Shown: positions 51,475 to 59,329 of the stretch, piece after piece
How positions within the stretch are numbered: the first letter of the stretch is position 1
How the letters are laid out: each line of letters opens with the position of its first letter
Source: Aquificaceae bacterium
Lineage (GTDB): Bacteria; Aquificota; Aquificia; Aquificales; Aquificaceae
Direction of reading: 5' to 3'
NCBI GenBank assembly: GCA_025057455.1
Contig: JANWWY010000002.1
Coordinates: 28,671 to 92,670 of the forward strand
DNA: 64,000 nt
Translations under genes and position numbers: made by a program
The notes under the pieces: model-generated
The model's input: only the letters and a program-made list of their open reading frames with translations
What the model was told of the DNA's origin: nothing
Databases searched by the model: none

Positions 51475-52518
51475 ATGAGCAAATCCAGTATGAAGAGGAA
51501 AGCCGGAGTAGAAATTAGTGAGAAGGGTGTTGAGATTCTCCTTGATAATGGTGAGCGGATTTATCTGAACTCCCTGCAAGATTTTATTTCCTCTGAGTAT
51601 TCAAAGTCCAAGCTTGCAGTGGCCATTTCAAGGGACATGGTGATGGTAAGAAAGTGGCGTTTCCCCAAAGATGTTCTAAACAACATAGAGGAGGCCATTT
51701 ACTATAACATTGACGACATATTCCCCGCATCTACAGATGAACTTAAATTTGTGTATCATTTGACAAAAATCCACGAAGAAGCAATTGAGATTATGATTAT
51801 AGCCATTAAAAGGGAGATTTATGAACTTTTTAAAAGCTTGCGGAATGTTAAGTTACTCATCCCTTCGGCCTACGTTTATACTGCCATGGAAAGTTCAGAT
51901 GAATCCATGTGCATAAACAAGGGCTCCTATGCTGAAGTTGTTAGAATTCGAAACAAAGTTATTATGGATTGGTTATTAGAAGAGAATGCGGAATGTAGCT
52001 CCAAAATAGATGTACCTGCATTATTATTAAGTGTTTTAAATAAAGCATGGAAACCGCCCTCGTCTTTTATAGACAGGAGAATGATTATTAGCAAAAAACA
52101 ATTATTGTATATTGCCTCCGCAGTATTTTTACTTTTAACATCCATCATTGTGCCTATTGTGGACATAGCATACTGGAAATACAAGCTGTCTAACATAGAA
52201 AAAAAGGTAAAATCCGTTGAAAAGCTTGCTTCTGAACGTGATTTATTATCAGAAACAATATCTCGACATAAGGCTGTAATAGAACAATTGGATAGCAGAG
52301 TAAAACCAGTAGAGTTGCTGTCAGTAATATCAAATAGATTACCGAAGGATTCGTGGTTAGTATCCTTCTCCGTAACCAGAAACGAATTTATCATAGAAGG
52401 GTATGCAAAAGACGTAAAAAAGACCGAAGAAGCTCTAAGGAGCTCCTTTAACGTAGTAAGTTTCGAAACCAGAGAAAGTGAAGGGTTAAACAGTTTTACC
52501 TTAAAGGGTACTCGATAA
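51475..52518 (+). CDS. type II secretion inner-membrane protein, GspL/PilN-like
   Basis: 347 aa. An actin-like cytoplasmic half (KLAVAISRDMVMVRKWRFP; AIYYNIDDIFP resembles the GspL/PilM pattern), a single membrane helix near 205-225 (LLYIASAVFLLLTSIIVPIVDIAYW), a coiled-coil stretch (LSNIEKKVKSVEKLASERD), and a periplasmic PilN-like ferredoxin-fold domain. It appears to combine PilM- and PilN-type functions. Its DNA is clearly AT-richer (about 25-37% GC in sampled lines) than the neighbours. Confidence 0.75.
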   Translation: MSKSSMKRKAGVEISEKGVEILLDNGERIYLNSLQDFISSEYSKSKLAVAISRDMVMVRKWRFPKDVLNNIEEAIYYNIDDIFPASTDELKFVYHLTKIHEEAIEIMIIAIKREIYELFKSLRNVKLLIPSAYVYTAMESSDESMCINKGSYAEVVRIRNKVIMDWLLEENAECSSKIDVPALLLSVLNKAWKPPSSFIDRRMIISKKQLLYIASAVFLLLTSIIVPIVDIAYWKYKLSNIEKKVKSVEKLASERDLLSETISRHKAVIEQLDSRVKPVELLSVISNRLPKDSWLVSFSVTRNEFIIEGYAKDVKKTEEALRSSFNVVSFETRESEGLNSFTLKGTR

Positions 52519-53679
52519 ATGGAGTACAGGTATAAAGCCTTATATGAAAACCAAATATTAGAGGGTGTTGTAGAGGCAGAAGACAAATGGGAGGCTGTTA
52601 GTAAGCTAAAAAGTCAGGGTATGACCATAATACAGCTTGAAGAGCTGTCTGTTAGAGATAGTAAGGTAAACTACAAGTTTTTAGAAACCTTTACAAGACA
52701 GCTTTATCAACTGATTAAATCCGGTCTTACAACGGACAGAGCCATGGCCTTTCTGTCAAAGTCTGAAAAGAAATACTCACAACAACTGACCAATGTGCTC
52801 AACGATCTAAGGTCTGGCAGCTCCTTTAGCAATGCTCTAAGAAATTCTGGTATTTTTCCAAAAAGCTACATAGAAATGATAAAATCTGGAGAAGAAAGCG
52901 GAAATTTAGAAGAAATATTAGAACTCCTCATAGATGCACTGAGCGAGAGGAATGAGTTAAGGCGGAGTATTATTAATGCGATAATCTATCCGAGCTTCTT
53001 GTTATCTATAAGCTTATTCTCCTTCATGATGATAAGTATGTATGTTGTTCCAAAGTTTAAGACTGTACTTCAAACTGTAGACATAGAACTTCCGTTTATA
53101 ACTAAATTAGCATTTTTTATATCGGACGTATTTAGCTATATAATAATCGCCCTATTGTTTCTGGTGTTGTCCGTGCTTTTTACTCTTAGGTTTCTTATCA
53201 GAAAGAGGAAGGAGACGATAGAAAACCTTGTCTTAAGAATACCCTTCTTCGGTAGTATGGTGCTTAAGGTTGAGCTTATAAGGTTCTCGCAAAGTATTTA
53301 CTCCCTGTTAAGAAGCAATCTACCCCTAAACGTTGCACTTGATATATCTGTAGAAACTGTAAGCTTATTAAGCATAAAAAAGAGATTGCAGGATGTTAAA
53401 AGGGAGGTATTACGTGGCGCAGCTTTAAGTCAGGCAATCCGTAAACATAAGCTGTTCCCGGCTGTTTTTGTGGAGATAGTTTCTGTTGGTGAACAATCTG
53501 GGGAATTGGCTGGGGCATTTTACAGGATATACACTCAGTTTAACGAAGAGCTCAAGGACAACATAAGAAGATTTATAAGTCTCTTAGAGCCAAGCATAAT
53601 TGTATTGATGGGCCTAATAGTAGGCTTTTTAGTATTTTCCATGATGCTCGCAGTCTTTAGTATATCATCTGGTGTTTAG
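52519..53679 (+). CDS. gspF: type II secretion inner-membrane platform protein GspF (copy 1)
   Basis: 386 aa, with an N-terminal beta-rich stretch (YRYKALYENQILEGVVEAEDKWEAVSKL) and two GspF/PilC repeats (TRQLYQLIKSGLTTDRAM; FSQSIYSLLRSNLPLNVALDIS) and three membrane helices. It forms the platform contacting the GspE ATPase. The DNA is AT-rich like the preceding gene. It begins one base after that gene's stop. A second GspF follows. Confidence 0.9.
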   Translation: MEYRYKALYENQILEGVVEAEDKWEAVSKLKSQGMTIIQLEELSVRDSKVNYKFLETFTRQLYQLIKSGLTTDRAMAFLSKSEKKYSQQLTNVLNDLRSGSSFSNALRNSGIFPKSYIEMIKSGEESGNLEEILELLIDALSERNELRRSIINAIIYPSFLLSISLFSFMMISMYVVPKFKTVLQTVDIELPFITKLAFFISDVFSYIIIALLFLVLSVLFTLRFLIRKRKETIENLVLRIPFFGSMVLKVELIRFSQSIYSLLRSNLPLNVALDISVETVSLLSIKKRLQDVKREVLRGAALSQAIRKHKLFPAVFVEIVSVGEQSGELAGAFYRIYTQFNEELKDNIRRFISLLEPSIIVLMGLIVGFLVFSMMLAVFSISSGV

Positions 53680-53699: not shown

Positions 53700-54779
53700 A
53701 TGCTAAGCTTACCTAACAGCGTAGAGGAGATAAAAAGGCTAAAGCTAAAATTTTATAGAGGGGTCTCTTCCCAAGACCTTTCCTTTTTACTCCTTGAGCT
53801 ATACATGGTTTTAGAAGGTGGACTTGACCTACTGAAGGCTTTGGAGGTTGTGGCTTCTCAAACCCCGGAGAAGAGGCTCAGAGAAGCCTTAATGAAGGTA
53901 AAAGCATCCCTCGAAAAGGGCTATAGCGTTCACAGGGCTTTTTATGAAGCTGGAGTTTTCCCAGACTTTTTTGTAGAAATGCTAAAAGTAGCGGAAAGGG
54001 GTGAAAACCTAAAGCATGTTATCCGAATAGCGGGCGAGTACTTGCAGAAAACCGCAGAAACTAGGATGAAGGTTCTTACAACGCTTACTTATCCTTCCTT
54101 TGTAATATTGGCAAGTCTTTTGGCTGTTTTTGTGGTGGTCAAGGTGGTCGTGCCAAAGATAGTAAGTGTTTTGCAAGGTCTTGGGAAAGAGCTCCCACTT
54201 ATTACCAAAGCACTCATACTCTTTTCTGAGCTTCTGTCTTATATTCTTTATGCTTTTCCTTTACTTCTTGTCCTTTTTGTCCTGAGGTACAGAATCGTAG
54301 GAAGAGAGGTATGGGACAGATACTGGCTGTATGTCCCAATCTTTGGGAAGGTTTCCCTTTATTACAACCTATCAAGGTTTGCGGGAACTCTTCTAATGTC
54401 CTTATCTTCTGGGATTCCTATTACAAGAGCTTTGACCCTTAGCGTAGGAAGCTTTAACAATGCATACTTAAGGGCTTCTTTGCGGGGTGTTGAGGTTGAG
54501 GTGGCAAAGGGTAGGAGTATGAGCAGTGTTTTAAGAGATAGGGGAGTTTTGCCCGATAACTTCGTAAACTTACTTTCTATGGGCGAGAGAAGCGGTGAGC
54601 TTGAAAGAAGTCTAAAAATGCTTCAGGAACTTTATGAGCACCAGGCGGAGAGAATTGTTTCCTTTTGGCTGAGGTTTGTAGAACCCATTGCCATGCTCCT
54701 TGTGGGTGCCTTGGTGGCGGTGGTAGTGCTCAGCGTAGTTCTGCCATTGAGCGAAATAAGTGCGGGCGTTAGAAGATAA
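53700..54779 (+). CDS. type II secretion inner-membrane platform protein GspF (copy 2)
   Basis: 359 aa paralogue of the preceding gene, with the same two-repeat layout (FLLLELYMVLEGGLDLLKALEVV; FAGTLLMSLSSGIPITRALTL) and C-terminal FVEPIAMLLVGALVAVVVLSVVLPL. It lacks the beta-rich N-terminal stretch of copy 1. Base composition is back to the window norm, so the two copies likely have different histories. One may serve a different pilin set. Confidence 0.88.
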   Translation: MLSLPNSVEEIKRLKLKFYRGVSSQDLSFLLLELYMVLEGGLDLLKALEVVASQTPEKRLREALMKVKASLEKGYSVHRAFYEAGVFPDFFVEMLKVAERGENLKHVIRIAGEYLQKTAETRMKVLTTLTYPSFVILASLLAVFVVVKVVVPKIVSVLQGLGKELPLITKALILFSELLSYILYAFPLLLVLFVLRYRIVGREVWDRYWLYVPIFGKVSLYYNLSRFAGTLLMSLSSGIPITRALTLSVGSFNNAYLRASLRGVEVEVAKGRSMSSVLRDRGVLPDNFVNLLSMGERSGELERSLKMLQELYEHQAERIVSFWLRFVEPIAMLLVGALVAVVVLSVVLPLSEISAGVRR

Positions 54780-54809: not shown

Positions 54810-55211
54810 ATGAGGCAAAAAGGTTTTACCCTTATTGAGCTTTTGGTCGTTATCATCATACTGGGCATACTTGCCGCCATAGTTATACCGCGTATTACGG
54901 GAAGGGTGGACGAGGCAAAGGTAGAGGCAACCAAAGTCCAGCTAAGAGCTGTAAAGGATGCCTTAGAGCAGTATAAATTAGACAACGGCTTCTATCCCAC
55001 CACAGAGCAAGGTCTTAGGGCTTTGGTGGAAAAGCCTACAACGCCACCGGTGCCACAAAGGTGGAGACAGTACATGGACAAAATTCCAAAAGATGCATGG
55101 GACAGGGAGTTTTTGTACATGTCGCCGGGTATAAACAGACCCTTTGAGCTTAGGTCTGCTGGACCAGACGGCAAGGAAGGCACGGAGGACGACATAGATG
55201 TGTGGCAGTAA
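54810..55211 (+). CDS. gspG: major pseudopilin GspG
   Basis: 133 aa. Prepilin leader MRQKG/FTLIELLVVIIILGILAAIVIP with Glu5. The C-terminal domain has FYPTTEQGLRALV and PDGKEGTEDDIDVW, the calcium-binding GspG signature. It polymerises into the pseudopilus. It overlaps the next pseudopilin gene by 14 bp. TATACT/TATAAC elements lie just upstream (54794-54804), so it may also have its own promoter. Confidence 0.95.
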   Translation: MRQKGFTLIELLVVIIILGILAAIVIPRITGRVDEAKVEATKVQLRAVKDALEQYKLDNGFYPTTEQGLRALVEKPTTPPVPQRWRQYMDKIPKDAWDREFLYMSPGINRPFELRSAGPDGKEGTEDDIDVWQ

Positions 55212-55482
55212 AGGTTTTACCCTTTTAGAGCTCATCGTTGCTATAGCTATACTGTCTGTTGGCTTTTCAGTTGTGTATCAGCTGTTGGCAAAAGCAAGGG
55301 CAGACCAATCTTACGCGGAGACCTTGGCAAAGGACCTAATCCAGCTCAATAACCTTTTGGTGGAAGGTCGCACAGAAGGTCTTGAAGAAAGTAGAAGCAC
55401 ACTAAGGGATTATCCAGAAATAGAGGAGCTCTCCTACAAACTTGGGGGTGCGGAGCTTGTCCTTTACAGACTAAAGAGATGA
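55198..55482 (+). CDS. minor pseudopilin, GspI-like
   Basis: 94 aa. Leader MCGSKG/FTLLELIVAIAILSVGFSVVYQLL with Glu5, then a short domain without recognised features. Order after gspG suggests GspI (or GspH). It overlaps the gspG end by 14 bp and the next gene by 4 bp. Confidence 0.75.
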   Translation: MCGSKGFTLLELIVAIAILSVGFSVVYQLLAKARADQSYAETLAKDLIQLNNLLVEGRTEGLEESRSTLRDYPEIEELSYKLGGAELVLYRLKR

Positions 55483-55961
55483 AAAGGGGCTTTACCCTTT
55501 TAGAAGTTCTTCTTGTTCTTGTTCTTATGGGAGTCTTTTTCAGTGTACTCTCTTACAGCTTCTATTCTTCAACGAGAAACTCATACTTTATGTTGGAGTC
55601 CGCAGAGCTCCTAAAGGGGGAGATTTTTCTATTCTGGGACTTGCAAAGAAAACTCACAGGTGCTACAGACCTGTATATAAAAAAGGATGGTCTATTTATG
55701 GTTACATCCTCGGGTGACTATTACCAAGGACTTGTAAAGTGTGCTTACATATACAGGGATGGCTGGCTCTACTACTACGAATTTCCTTACCCTTACGGAG
55801 ACATAACCTTTTATGAGGAGGACAAACTGGTAAGAGTTGGAAGGTTTGAGGAGCTTTCTTTTAGAGCCTTTTCTAATGGTCAATTCTTTGACGAGTTCAA
55901 AGGATTGCCACAGTGGATGGATATAAGGTTCAAGGATAAGACGTACAGAATAGGCTTATAA
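55479..55961 (+). CDS. minor pseudopilin, GspJ-like
   Basis: 160 aa. Leader MKRG/FTLLEVLLVLVLMGVFFSVLSY with Glu5, followed by a mainly beta domain (KKDGLFMVTSSGDYYQG; YYYEFPYPYGDITFYEEDKLVRVG). Size and order fit GspJ. It overlaps gspI-like by 4 bp. No GspK is recognised. Confidence 0.75.
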   Translation: MKRGFTLLEVLLVLVLMGVFFSVLSYSFYSSTRNSYFMLESAELLKGEIFLFWDLQRKLTGATDLYIKKDGLFMVTSSGDYYQGLVKCAYIYRDGWLYYYEFPYPYGDITFYEEDKLVRVGRFEELSFRAFSNGQFFDEFKGLPQWMDIRFKDKTYRIGL

Positions 55962-55972
55962 TACTATAGCCG

Positions 55973-56728
55973 ATGTACTGGGTACCTCCCTTCTTTCTTA
56001 TCTCAGTGGGGCTTTTAAGCCTTTTCTACCTGCTTTTTTTGACGGCTACACCAACAAAGGTACCGCAGATAAGAAGGGAGGAGGTAAACCCCTCTGGACT
56101 CTTTGCCAAGTTTGAGAGTCTGTATCCCAAAGAAGAGAAAACGGAGAAGAGTCTGCCATCCATAAAACTTATTGCTACGGTGACGGGAAGTGTGAGAATG
56201 GCTTTGGCTGAAGTGGATGGAAGCCCAAGGACCTTGCGAGTGGGGTCTCAGGTGAGTGCGTACAGAGTGGTCAGCATTGAGAGAAATTACTTGATTTTAG
56301 TTAAGGGTGAAGATAGACTTGCTATTGGCTTTAGATTTAGCCAGGAATCAGCGCCAGACGCAAGCTACTCGCCCGCCAAACCCCTACCCACGCCTCAAGC
56401 TTCAAAGAGCGTTCAATCAGCCATATCAAAGGGGGAGCTGGAACGTATAACCGCAGACCCAGGTATAATGTTTAGGCAGATAAGGTTGGTTCCCTTCGTG
56501 CAAGAAGGGAGAACGAGGGGTTTTCTCTTTGAGTGGGTTGAGCCAGGAAGCCTTTTTGAAAGGGCGGGCATAAGAGCGGGTGATGTGCTTCTGTCTATAA
56601 ACAACCAAGAAATAAGAAGCGGTGAGGATGCCTTTAGGATTTTGCAGGTTTTGAGAAATGAAAGCAGTATAAGGCTAAACATACAGAGGGGCAATGAGAT
56701 ATTAGAAATTTCTTTGAGGGTGGAGTGA
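55973..56728 (+). CDS. gspC: type II secretion protein GspC with PDZ domain
   Basis: 251 aa. One N-terminal membrane helix (FFLISVGLLSLFYLLFL), an HR domain (IKLIATVTGSVRMALAEVDGSPRTLRVGSQVSAY) and a C-terminal PDZ domain (LFERAGIRAGDVLLSINNQEIRSGEDAFRIL). It links the inner-membrane platform to the secretin. It overlaps gspD by 4 bp. Confidence 0.9.
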   Translation: MYWVPPFFLISVGLLSLFYLLFLTATPTKVPQIRREEVNPSGLFAKFESLYPKEEKTEKSLPSIKLIATVTGSVRMALAEVDGSPRTLRVGSQVSAYRVVSIERNYLILVKGEDRLAIGFRFSQESAPDASYSPAKPLPTPQASKSVQSAISKGELERITADPGIMFRQIRLVPFVQEGRTRGFLFEWVEPGSLFERAGIRAGDVLLSINNQEIRSGEDAFRILQVLRNESSIRLNIQRGNEILEISLRVE

Positions 56729-58707
56729 TGAAAAGGTTTCTGCCTCTTTTACTTCTGCTTTTCCTATGGGTGCCTGCAAAAACGCAGGAGATTGAAGAGC
56801 TTCAAAGACAGGCTCAGGAGCAGAGAAAAACAGGAAGGGTTTTCCTAAATTTTCAGAACGCAGACATAAGCCTCGTGGTCAAATTCATGTCGGAGCTTAC
56901 CGGGAAAAACATAGTGCTTGACCCAGCGGTAAAAGGAACGATTACCATAAGCTCCGCAAAACAGGTAAGCCTTCAGCAGGCATGGGAGCTTTTTGTTATG
57001 TCTCTTACGCTTCAAGGCTACGGCGTAATAGAGGATAAAAACTTTGTTCGTATAGTTCCCATAGCTCAAGCCATACCTCTTGCAGAGCCAAAAAAGCCAA
57101 TCACAGGTGCGGAGATAGTCATATACATATTCACTGCGGAAAATACTCAAGTAGCTCAGCTACAACAGGCTATACAACCCTTTCTCTCACCCTTTGCCAA
57201 GACGGGCGTTCATGCACAGACAAACACTCTAATAATCGCTGACATAGGCAAAAACGTAGATAAGGTAAAGAGAATACTCAAAGAGCTCGATTCTCCAGAA
57301 AGGACTCTGAAAGTAAAGTTCTATCCTCTACAGAAGGCAAGGGCGGAGAGCGTTTTTCAGAGCGTGCAAGGAATTTTGAGCGCTCTCCAACAGCAAACTG
57401 GTTCTTTGAGCGTTGCTACCTTTAGCAAGGACGCAAACGCCATCATAGTCATAGCGAGGGACGAAGTGCACAATGTGGTGGACGAGGTTATAAAAACCAT
57501 AGATAAGTCCACACAATTTGTGGAAGACAGAAGCTTCTATATCGTACCTCTCAAGTTTATATCCGCAGAGGAGCTTCACAAGAGCCTTCAGAGCCTCCTT
57601 TCTGGTGTCTCACCTACCGTGGTTCAGCCTCAGCCGACGCCACAACCTCAACCCGTTGACATAAGGGGGCTTGAAACGCCCCTACAGAGGCCGCAGCCTG
57701 CTCCAAAGCAACCAGTCCAACCCCTTTCTCCTATACAGACAAAAGAGGGCCTTCGCATAGGCTTTGATAGGGGCACCAATTCGGTGCTTATATACGCCAC
57801 ACCTCAGGAATTTGAAGGGTTGAAATCCCTCATAGAAAAGCTAGATGTGAGAAAAAGGCAGGTGCTTATTGCAGCGTCCGTCGTGGAGATGTCCACGAGC
57901 AGAGCCTTAGACATAGGCATAAGGTGGCAGGCTATTGGTTCAAAGGGAGGTGCAGGATTTGGTGCAGGTAGTCTTCAAGACCTATACAGCTCTTTGCTCT
58001 CGGGGAGCTTTATTTTGGGTTTTATAAACAACGTGGGTAGAACCGTTACCATAGGGGGTACTACTCTTTTCTTTCCAGACCTTGTGCTTTTACTTTCTCT
58101 CCTTGAAAAGGGCACTGGCTTTAACCTCATATCCAACCCAAAGGTCCTAACCCTTGACAATCAGACTGCGGAGATAAAAGTAGGCCAAGTAGTACCCTTT
58201 GCCTCGGGCGTGAAGTTTGACATAAACGGACAACCTGTCATAACTTACGACTACAAGGAGGTGGGTTTAGACCTAAAAATAACCCCCACCATAGCTGAGG
58301 GTAACCTAAGGCTCATGATTAACCTTCAGGTTCAGGAAATAGTGGACTTTATAAGACCACAGGTAGGGCAACTCAGCTATGCGGTGCCTGTTACCTCCAA
58401 CAGACAGGTAAACTCGGATGTGGTAGTAGAAAACGGACAAACCATAATAATAGGCGGGCTTGTTAGCACAAGAAGTATTAGCACAGAAGAGGGAGTGCCC
58501 GGGCTTAAAAATTTGCCAATCTTTGGCAGACTCTTTAGAAGAGATTCGCAGACGGAGGATAAAGTATCCCTTTTCATATTCCTGACTCCTTACATCGTTG
58601 AGAAACCAGAAGATCTGACGAGAATAACTCAGGAGCATCAGAGGCTGGCGGAGGAACTAAAAAAGCTAATGAAAAAGCAAAGGAAGAATGAAAAGACTGA
58701 ACCTTAA
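56725..58707 (+). CDS. gspD: type II secretion secretin GspD
   Basis: 660 aa. Signal peptide MKRFLPLLLLLFLWVPAKT, N0 domain (VFLNFQNADISLVVKFMSELTGKNIVLDP), N1-N3 repeats, a Pro/Gln-rich insertion within N3, and the secretin core with LTLDNQTAEIKVGQVVPFASG, VPVTSNRQVNSDVVVENGQTIIIGGL and IPFLTPYIV-type end. It forms the outer-membrane channel. The C-terminal S domain is short and basic. It overlaps the next gene by 20 bp. Confidence 0.96.
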   Translation: MMKRFLPLLLLLFLWVPAKTQEIEELQRQAQEQRKTGRVFLNFQNADISLVVKFMSELTGKNIVLDPAVKGTITISSAKQVSLQQAWELFVMSLTLQGYGVIEDKNFVRIVPIAQAIPLAEPKKPITGAEIVIYIFTAENTQVAQLQQAIQPFLSPFAKTGVHAQTNTLIIADIGKNVDKVKRILKELDSPERTLKVKFYPLQKARAESVFQSVQGILSALQQQTGSLSVATFSKDANAIIVIARDEVHNVVDEVIKTIDKSTQFVEDRSFYIVPLKFISAEELHKSLQSLLSGVSPTVVQPQPTPQPQPVDIRGLETPLQRPQPAPKQPVQPLSPIQTKEGLRIGFDRGTNSVLIYATPQEFEGLKSLIEKLDVRKRQVLIAASVVEMSTSRALDIGIRWQAIGSKGGAGFGAGSLQDLYSSLLSGSFILGFINNVGRTVTIGGTTLFFPDLVLLLSLLEKGTGFNLISNPKVLTLDNQTAEIKVGQVVPFASGVKFDINGQPVITYDYKEVGLDLKITPTIAEGNLRLMINLQVQEIVDFIRPQVGQLSYAVPVTSNRQVNSDVVVENGQTIIIGGLVSTRSISTEEGVPGLKNLPIFGRLFRRDSQTEDKVSLFIFLTPYIVEKPEDLTRITQEHQRLAEELKKLMKKQRKNEKTEP

Positions 58708-59329
58708 GCATCTTTTAGCCTACGTTGTTGGGTTTCCAATATTCCTTGCTGTGGTTTTTTTTCTGACCTTTCCCAAGTTTTTGTTTCTTGACAGGGAGCT
58801 CTCAAAGAGAAACCTATACTTGACAGCGGAGAAGGTAGAAGAGAGCCTTACAGAAGTAAAACTAACAGGTGTTAACCTCTACGACCAGAAGTCAAAGCTT
58901 GCAAGGTTTGACACGCTAAGAATTTCCCTCAGTTTCTTTAAAGTCACTGTTTATGGGCTTTGCGAGGGCAAGCCTTTGAGGTTAGGCTGGTCTCCTTTTA
59001 GCATAAGTATAAGGGCGGACGGCTTTACCTGCCTGCGTGGTTTAGAAGAGCTCTCCGCCGACCTTCTGGCAAAGGAAGGTATATACGGACGCATTAACAT
59101 AAAGGGTATAGAGGTGCAGGATACGAAGTTGGACAGTCTTTCCCTCGAACTGAAGGGAAGGGTGTTTACCGCAAGGGCTAAGTTTATGGGTACAGAGCTT
59201 GTGGGCGATGGTCAGATAGTTTTTAAGAGAAGAGACCCTCTAAAGTCTTCACTAAACGGACAGGTTTCTGGGCTTGGAATGAGGGTTTTGATATCTGGCA
59301 CCCTAGAGAGACCTCAGATAATGAGGTAA
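58688..59329 (+). CDS. GspN-like type II secretion protein
   Basis: 213 aa. One N-terminal membrane helix (YVVGFPIFLAVVFFLTFPKF) followed by a beta-rich extracytoplasmic part (YLTAEKVEESLTEVKLTGVNLYDQ; FDTLRISLSFFKVTVYG), the AsmA-like layout of GspN. Overlaps gspD. The operon lacks GspE, GspM, GspK and the prepilin peptidase, which must lie elsewhere. Confidence 0.75.
   Translation: MKRLNLKHLLAYVVGFPIFLAVVFFLTFPKFLFLDRELSKRNLYLTAEKVEESLTEVKLTGVNLYDQKSKLARFDTLRISLSFFKVTVYGLCEGKPLRLGWSPFSISIRADGFTCLRGLEELSADLLAKEGIYGRINIKGIEVQDTKLDSLSLELKGRVFTARAKFMGTELVGDGQIVFKRRDPLKSSLNGQVSGLGMRVLISGTLERPQIMR

Follow-up and report, generated by a model that had tools for sequence, protein, structure and literature searches.

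Why is a type II secretion (T2SS) operon of an Aquificaceae bacterium preceded by an AT-rich pair of genes, one of which encodes an additional GspF-type platform protein, and is this pair still at work? The question was raised by a preliminary description of the window, the whole 64,000-nucleotide stretch of DNA analyzed here, which lies on contig C22 of a draft genome (G000; 1.42 Mb, 66 contigs, 99.7% complete). The two genes, named L2 and F1, lie in the interior of a 92.7 kb contig and are immediately followed by the main gspF-G-I-J-C-D-N operon of the first system (T2SS-1), in the order given below.

51475-52518, + strand: L2, GspL-type protein of a second T2SS (T2SS-2); 347 aa, intact ORF
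52519-53679, + strand: F1, GspF/PilC-type platform protein of the second T2SS; 386 aa, full length with N-terminal domain, intact ORF
53700-54779, + strand: main GspF of T2SS-1; 359 aa, two T2SSF domains, in a clade separate from F1
54810-55211, + strand: GspG major pseudopilin; TIGR01710 at 177 bits, over the cut-off of 88.85
55198-55482, + strand: minor pseudopilin (GspI/H-like); N_methyl
55479-55961, + strand: minor pseudopilin (GspJ/H-like); N_methyl
55973-56728, + strand: GspC-like protein with a PDZ domain (PDZ_6); GspC models below cut-off
56725-58707, + strand: GspD secretin of T2SS-1; TIGR02517 at 472 bits, over the cut-off of 351
58688-59329, + strand: GspN-like protein, weak (TIGR04411, E 0.06 only), operon-conserved in relatives

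The start codon of F1 (ATG) follows directly on the stop codon of L2 (TAA), and main gspF starts 20 bp after F1; because of this spacing, L2, F1, and main gspF are likely to be co-transcribed. Promoter and terminator scanning returned sites that were barely more numerous than chance. In the family at large, T2SS-1 is widespread, with E-L-M-K at one locus and F-G-I-J-C-D-N at another.

The compositional contrast on which the question rests is real. In a sample of 129 genes of this genome, each encoding at least 110 aa (mean GC 44.0%), L2 (36.9%, z -3.1) and F1 (37.4%, z -2.9) are the lowest and second lowest in GC, and the main GspF gene stands at 43.8%; the 25–37% GC first quoted was an impression from single sequence lines, the gene averages being 37%. 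TTA supplies 46% of the leucine codons of L2 and 30% of those of F1, against a mean of 12.6% over the 129 genes. The codon usage of L2 is the most deviant of the sample (rank 1/129, z 9.2), whereas the synonymous usage of F1, once its amino acids are allowed for, is ordinary (rank 35/129, z 1.1). Hence, the pair is compositionally foreign to this genome in GC and, for L2, in codon usage as well.

The two proteins can be identified as a GspL and a GspF, because F1 carries T2SSF domains with conserved motifs and the L2 model adopts the corresponding folds. L2 comprises an actin-like cytoplasmic domain (~8-200), one membrane helix near 212-232, a coiled coil, and a periplasmic ferredoxin-like domain (~280-347), although its Pfam match, to PilN, is weak. 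In its AlphaFold2 model (pLDDT 81), the actin-like domain, the single transmembrane segment, and the ferredoxin-like domain are joined in one chain, as is characteristic of GspL; the best solved folds retrieved by Foldseek are the GspL/EpsL cytoplasmic domain (4pht, with GspE bound, and 1yf5) and PilM, and the C-terminus matches the periplasmic domain of XcpY, a GspL (5n7l), at TM-scores that are modest throughout (0.5-0.66 by target). The cytoplasmic domain of L2 is thus predicted to share the fold of the GspE-binding domain of GspL, and from this fold match it may bind GspE. F1 contains two T2SSF domains (PF00482, two stretches, 156.7 bits) and scores best of all models against the GspF model TIGR02120, at 260.9 bits, which is under the curated cut-off of 424; the main GspF falls under the same cut-off at 215.6 bits. 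The Y157-P158 (TM1) and E357-P358 (TM3) motifs of F1 are retained, and the importance of such Tyr-Pro and Glu-Pro motifs, which line the channel of PulF, has been documented (PMC10790770). The usual N-terminal domain of GspF (~40-50 residues) is kept in F1 and in other Aquificaceae genera, and is missing from the main GspF in all sampled members of this genus.

The second platform protein had been described as a duplicated GspF; this does not hold, as F1 is not a copy of its neighbor. F1 and main GspF fall into two different clades, each with full support, in phylogenies of 38 and of 18 platform proteins, which included one non-Aquificota sequence; the F1 clade (100/99-100/100) is distinct from both main GspF and PilC. 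A recent duplication of main gspF was considered and rejected, since a tree constrained to unite the two proteins of the window is worse by 404 log-likelihood units. Similarly, a fission pair of the Tad type was rejected, each of the two proteins carrying two T2SSF domains. In Tad pili, TadB and TadC likewise provide two platform proteins for one ATPase; however, they are one-domain halves derived from gene fission (PMC6668835, PMC11300603), whereas F1 and main GspF each comprise both domains in full and stem from separate lineages. A scan of genome contigs for F1 returned a single distant Bacteroidota locus and nothing else.

These trees also bear on the proposal that L2 and F1 act in a type IV pilus or in some other filament powered by PilB. 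In one of the trees, the F1 clade is placed on the PilC side (98/94), not with main GspF, and genes for PilB and PilC are present in the genome; furthermore, the type IVa pilus proteins PilC, PilM, and PilN belong to the same superfamily, and PilM and PilN are the nearest PDB sequence matches of L2. Against this, the placement of F1 is unsure because it involves long branches, and F1 lies outside the PilC clade itself; L2 is GspL-like and fused into one chain, unlike the separate PilM and PilN; and the partners found in relatives are GspG, GspM, GspE, and a GspD-like secretin. Service in a pilus or other PilB-driven filament is therefore regarded as very improbable.

Those partners mark the pair as part of a second system. 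Six parts, namely a second GspE (E2), GspD-like secretin (D2), GspM (M2), GspL (L2), GspF (F1), and GspG (G2), constitute T2SS-2, which occurs in two further species of this genus (G010 and, incompletely, G008) and in two other Aquificaceae genera. All six types are present in G021, G010, and G019; in G010 they fall within 40 kb of one contig, G021 and G079 carry D2-M2-E2 with divergent L2-F1 adjoining, and G019, G063, G065, and G066 have D2-M2-E2 operons with F1 elsewhere in the genome. Among 41 relatives, orthologues of F1 occur in G008, G010, G019, and G021 at 46-64% identity (61-64% to G010/G008, 46-50% to the other genera), and those of L2 in G010 (37%), G021 (32%), and G019 (28%). The E2 proteins make up a clade of their own (100/100), separate from main GspE, to which E2 is ~51% identical, and the E2 group (identity of 66% or more) is confined to three genera of the family among 136 genomes of the phylum searched. 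Second-system proteins score below the curated GspE, GspD, and GspF cut-offs. In sum, the Aquificaceae hold two distinct type II secretion lineages. The likeness to known Gsp/Xcp/Pul systems lies in the GspL- and GspF-type proteins, in the GspD, E, F, G, L, and M types of the relatives, and in the retained pore motifs of PulF; the difference is that here the second system is reduced to L and F and joined to the operon of another system. Close to D2, G010 has a group of small pilin-like genes (L106:17616-18999 and L107:3-778) that may encode minor pseudopilins of T2SS-2. A conserved lipoprotein-like protein of ~230 aa without a Pfam match (L107:10492-11208, L112:4089-4790, L151:8558-9214) is always encoded just upstream of a choice-of-anchor-D protein adjoining E2.

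In the genome under study, among the parts tested, only L2 and F1 of T2SS-2 are kept, M2 being too divergent to exclude. The count of GspE ATPases, for which the preliminary description had called, amounts to one: the four T2SSE-family ATPases are one GspE (contig C7) and one PilB (C23), both for extension, and two of the PilT type, and E2 was not found. A second GspG was not found either, the GspG of the window being the single T2SSG match in the genome; nor was a second T2SS-type secretin, GspD of T2SS-1 being the only one and the other secretin a PilQ-like fragment at a contig edge. Also not found in this genome were the island acetyltransferase, which in G008, G010, and genus g7 occurs together with F1 or its island, and the E2-linked choice-of-anchor-D surface protein. 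Beyond the T2SS-1 set, the genome thus has no GspE, GspD, or GspG of the kind that would make up a complete second T2SS. Gaps in the assembly could produce the same picture, the strain then possessing T2SS-2 in full, with its other genes missing from the assembly; the draft is in 66 contigs, and in G008 contig ends do cut the island. Yet completeness is 99.7%, L2-F1 lies well within its contig, and several independent gaps would be needed because E2, D2, and G2 are encoded at different sites in relatives, which leaves this explanation with a rather small probability.

As to the AT-richness, replacement or addition by horizontal transfer had been suggested; addition from an unknown source does not fit, as L2-F1 belongs to a second T2SS of the same genus and two sister genera. 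The F1 and L2 genes match their hosts in GC in genera g7 and g9, and are depressed in this genus: 32% in G010, 33% in G008 (F1), and 37% here. Recent transfer of L2-F1 is not demonstrated, because the AT-richness is confined to the genus, F1 and L2 are host-like elsewhere, and E2 is host-like in every genome. The F1 trees do not significantly reject the groupings required by vertical descent and leave the branching order of the three genera undecided (AU p 0.12 and 0.27 for the alternatives). Instead of one Aquificales clade of matching composition, the outcome that had been set against transfer, there are two clades, and the composition matches the host outside the genus but not inside it. 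A recent horizontal gain of the whole T2SS-2 by the genus was likewise found unsupported, the GC of E2 and D2 in G010 being host-like and the E2 tree following the main GspE tree in the genera sampled.

In the genomes of this genus, L2-F1 lies within or next to an AT-rich island of glycan genes (Wzm/Wzt ABC exporter, sugar transferases, GNAT, PIG-L deacetylase); in G010 the island adjoins main gspF and encloses L2-F1 and G2. The low GC of the pair probably reflects this island, which may itself have been imported. The island, with its glycan and ABC-export genes, adjoins T2SS genes at L047:9696-18829 (G010) and L112:3-3609 (G008), and among 26 genomes tested its GNAT family is restricted to those with a second T2SS. 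In G008, F1 directly precedes main gspF as it does in the window, and L2, G2, and D2, which were not found there, may lie in gaps because the contig begins inside F1; main gspF is not in the vicinity of F1 in G010, G019, and G021, and inversion of the G010 island segment would yield the L2-F1-gspF order of the window. Because G008 has the window order and an inverted G010 would share it, the common ancestor presumably carried L2-F1 at the border of the island, adjacent to gspF, the island being subsequently deleted up to L2 in the lineage of G000.

Whether the surviving pair still works can be approached through its rate of change. If L2-F1 were decaying, its branches should be longer here than in G010, where the system is kept; the opposite is seen, with 0.22 vs 0.41 substitutions per site for F1 and 0.56 vs 0.85 for L2, which is evidence against decay. 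Tajima counts of unique changes in F1 (33-37 here, 37-45 in G010) do not differ significantly, and the same applies to L2. At 175 columns invariant in six F1 proteins of other genera, G000 alone changes 11, all mildly (V to I, K to R, and similar), and G010 alone changes 18, some of them drastically (D139Y, S150H, G332R).

The reading preferred, at slightly better than even confidence, is that L2-F1 is a working alternative inner-membrane platform that is driven by the sole GspE of the genome and was retained from an ancestral T2SS-2 otherwise lost. T2SS-2 would have been present in the ancestor of part of the genus, and it is still complete or nearly so in a sister species and two other Aquificaceae genera. 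The lineage of G000 would then have lost E2, G2, and D2 together with the associated glycan and surface-protein genes, and L2-F1 may have been spared because it lay at the junction with the T2SS-1 operon and ran in the same direction. For the family, it is established that GspL anchors GspE at the membrane and that GspF couples GspE to pseudopilin extraction (PMC10790770). L2 and F1 would recruit the only GspE, encoded on C7, as its second docking platform, and would share the pseudopilus, secretin, and GspC of T2SS-1; recognition of GspE by L2 and F1 is not guaranteed, because E2 and GspE are only ~51% identical. The ancestral layout with its deletion, the cross-use of GspE, and the function of L2-F1 are what we infer from these comparisons. 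Of the early proposals, a hybrid machine with alternative platforms thus appears to be the best remaining functional reading, and in a bolder, tentative form of it, one T2SS would possess two interchangeable platforms, L1-F and L2-F1, that compete for one GspE and one pseudopilus and secretin, so that the bacterium switches cargo or output through the platform alone.

The pair may instead be a relic, the rest of T2SS-2 having been lost recently and L2-F1 being intact for want of time or through carriage in the operon of an essential machine. Every other tested part of T2SS-2 is gone from this genome, and the pair is also missing from most of the genus, so its loss is common; a very recent loss of the rest could moreover escape the rate tests because synonymous sites are saturated and dN/dS is uninformative. 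The intact ORFs, rates equal to or below those of G010, and mild changes at conserved columns nevertheless render a relic unlikely, if still a serious contender. A further reading would combine F1 and main GspF into one mixed platform of T2SS-1, as TadB and TadC are in Tad pili: the two are adjacent in a probable single operon, the genome has one GspE, and F1 possesses the N-domain that main GspF is missing. However, TadB and TadC have one T2SSF domain each, by fission (PMC6668835), where F1 and main GspF have two each; main GspF is without the N-domain even in species without F1; PulF is functional without it (PMC10790770); and F1 is not close to main gspF in G010, G019, and G021. A mixed platform is accordingly held to be improbable.

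A separate observation concerns genes beside the T2SS loci. A gene for a CPBP protease of the myxosortase family adjoins gspK (Mrt_core, 9e-15, below cut-off), and proteins adjoining gspE or E2 (subtilase, choice-of-anchor-D) end in a Gly-rich Cys motif, a membrane helix, and an Arg tail ('GGGGCSTG...RR'), resembling MYXO/Synerg-CTERM tags at scores below the cut-offs of those models. The protease and tag loci are as follows.

Contig C7 of this genome: L055:6007-6498, - strand, and L055:10317-12188, + strand
Other loci: L106, L113, L107:8767-10479, L112:4781-6475, L151, L152, L153, L154, L174, L176, L181

To judge from these sequences, protease and tags possibly form an undescribed C-terminal sorting system of the Aquificota, a phylum not mentioned in a 2025 myxosortase paper (PMC11980579).

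In a published survey, the only secretion systems recorded for Aquificae were T1SS and T5SS, and T2SS proved very rare outside Proteobacteria (PMC4793230); no description of a second Aquificaceae T2SS was found in the open-access literature, subscription journals being outside the scope of the search. Two T2SS lineages are now shown in a phylum for which that survey had only type I and type V. The series of genomes in which the second system is complete, partial, reduced to the platform pair, or absent offers a natural setting for studying how parts are shared between two machines. If L2-F1 does work with the motor of the other system, platform and motor would be mixable in nature, which would bear on the origin of new filament machines.
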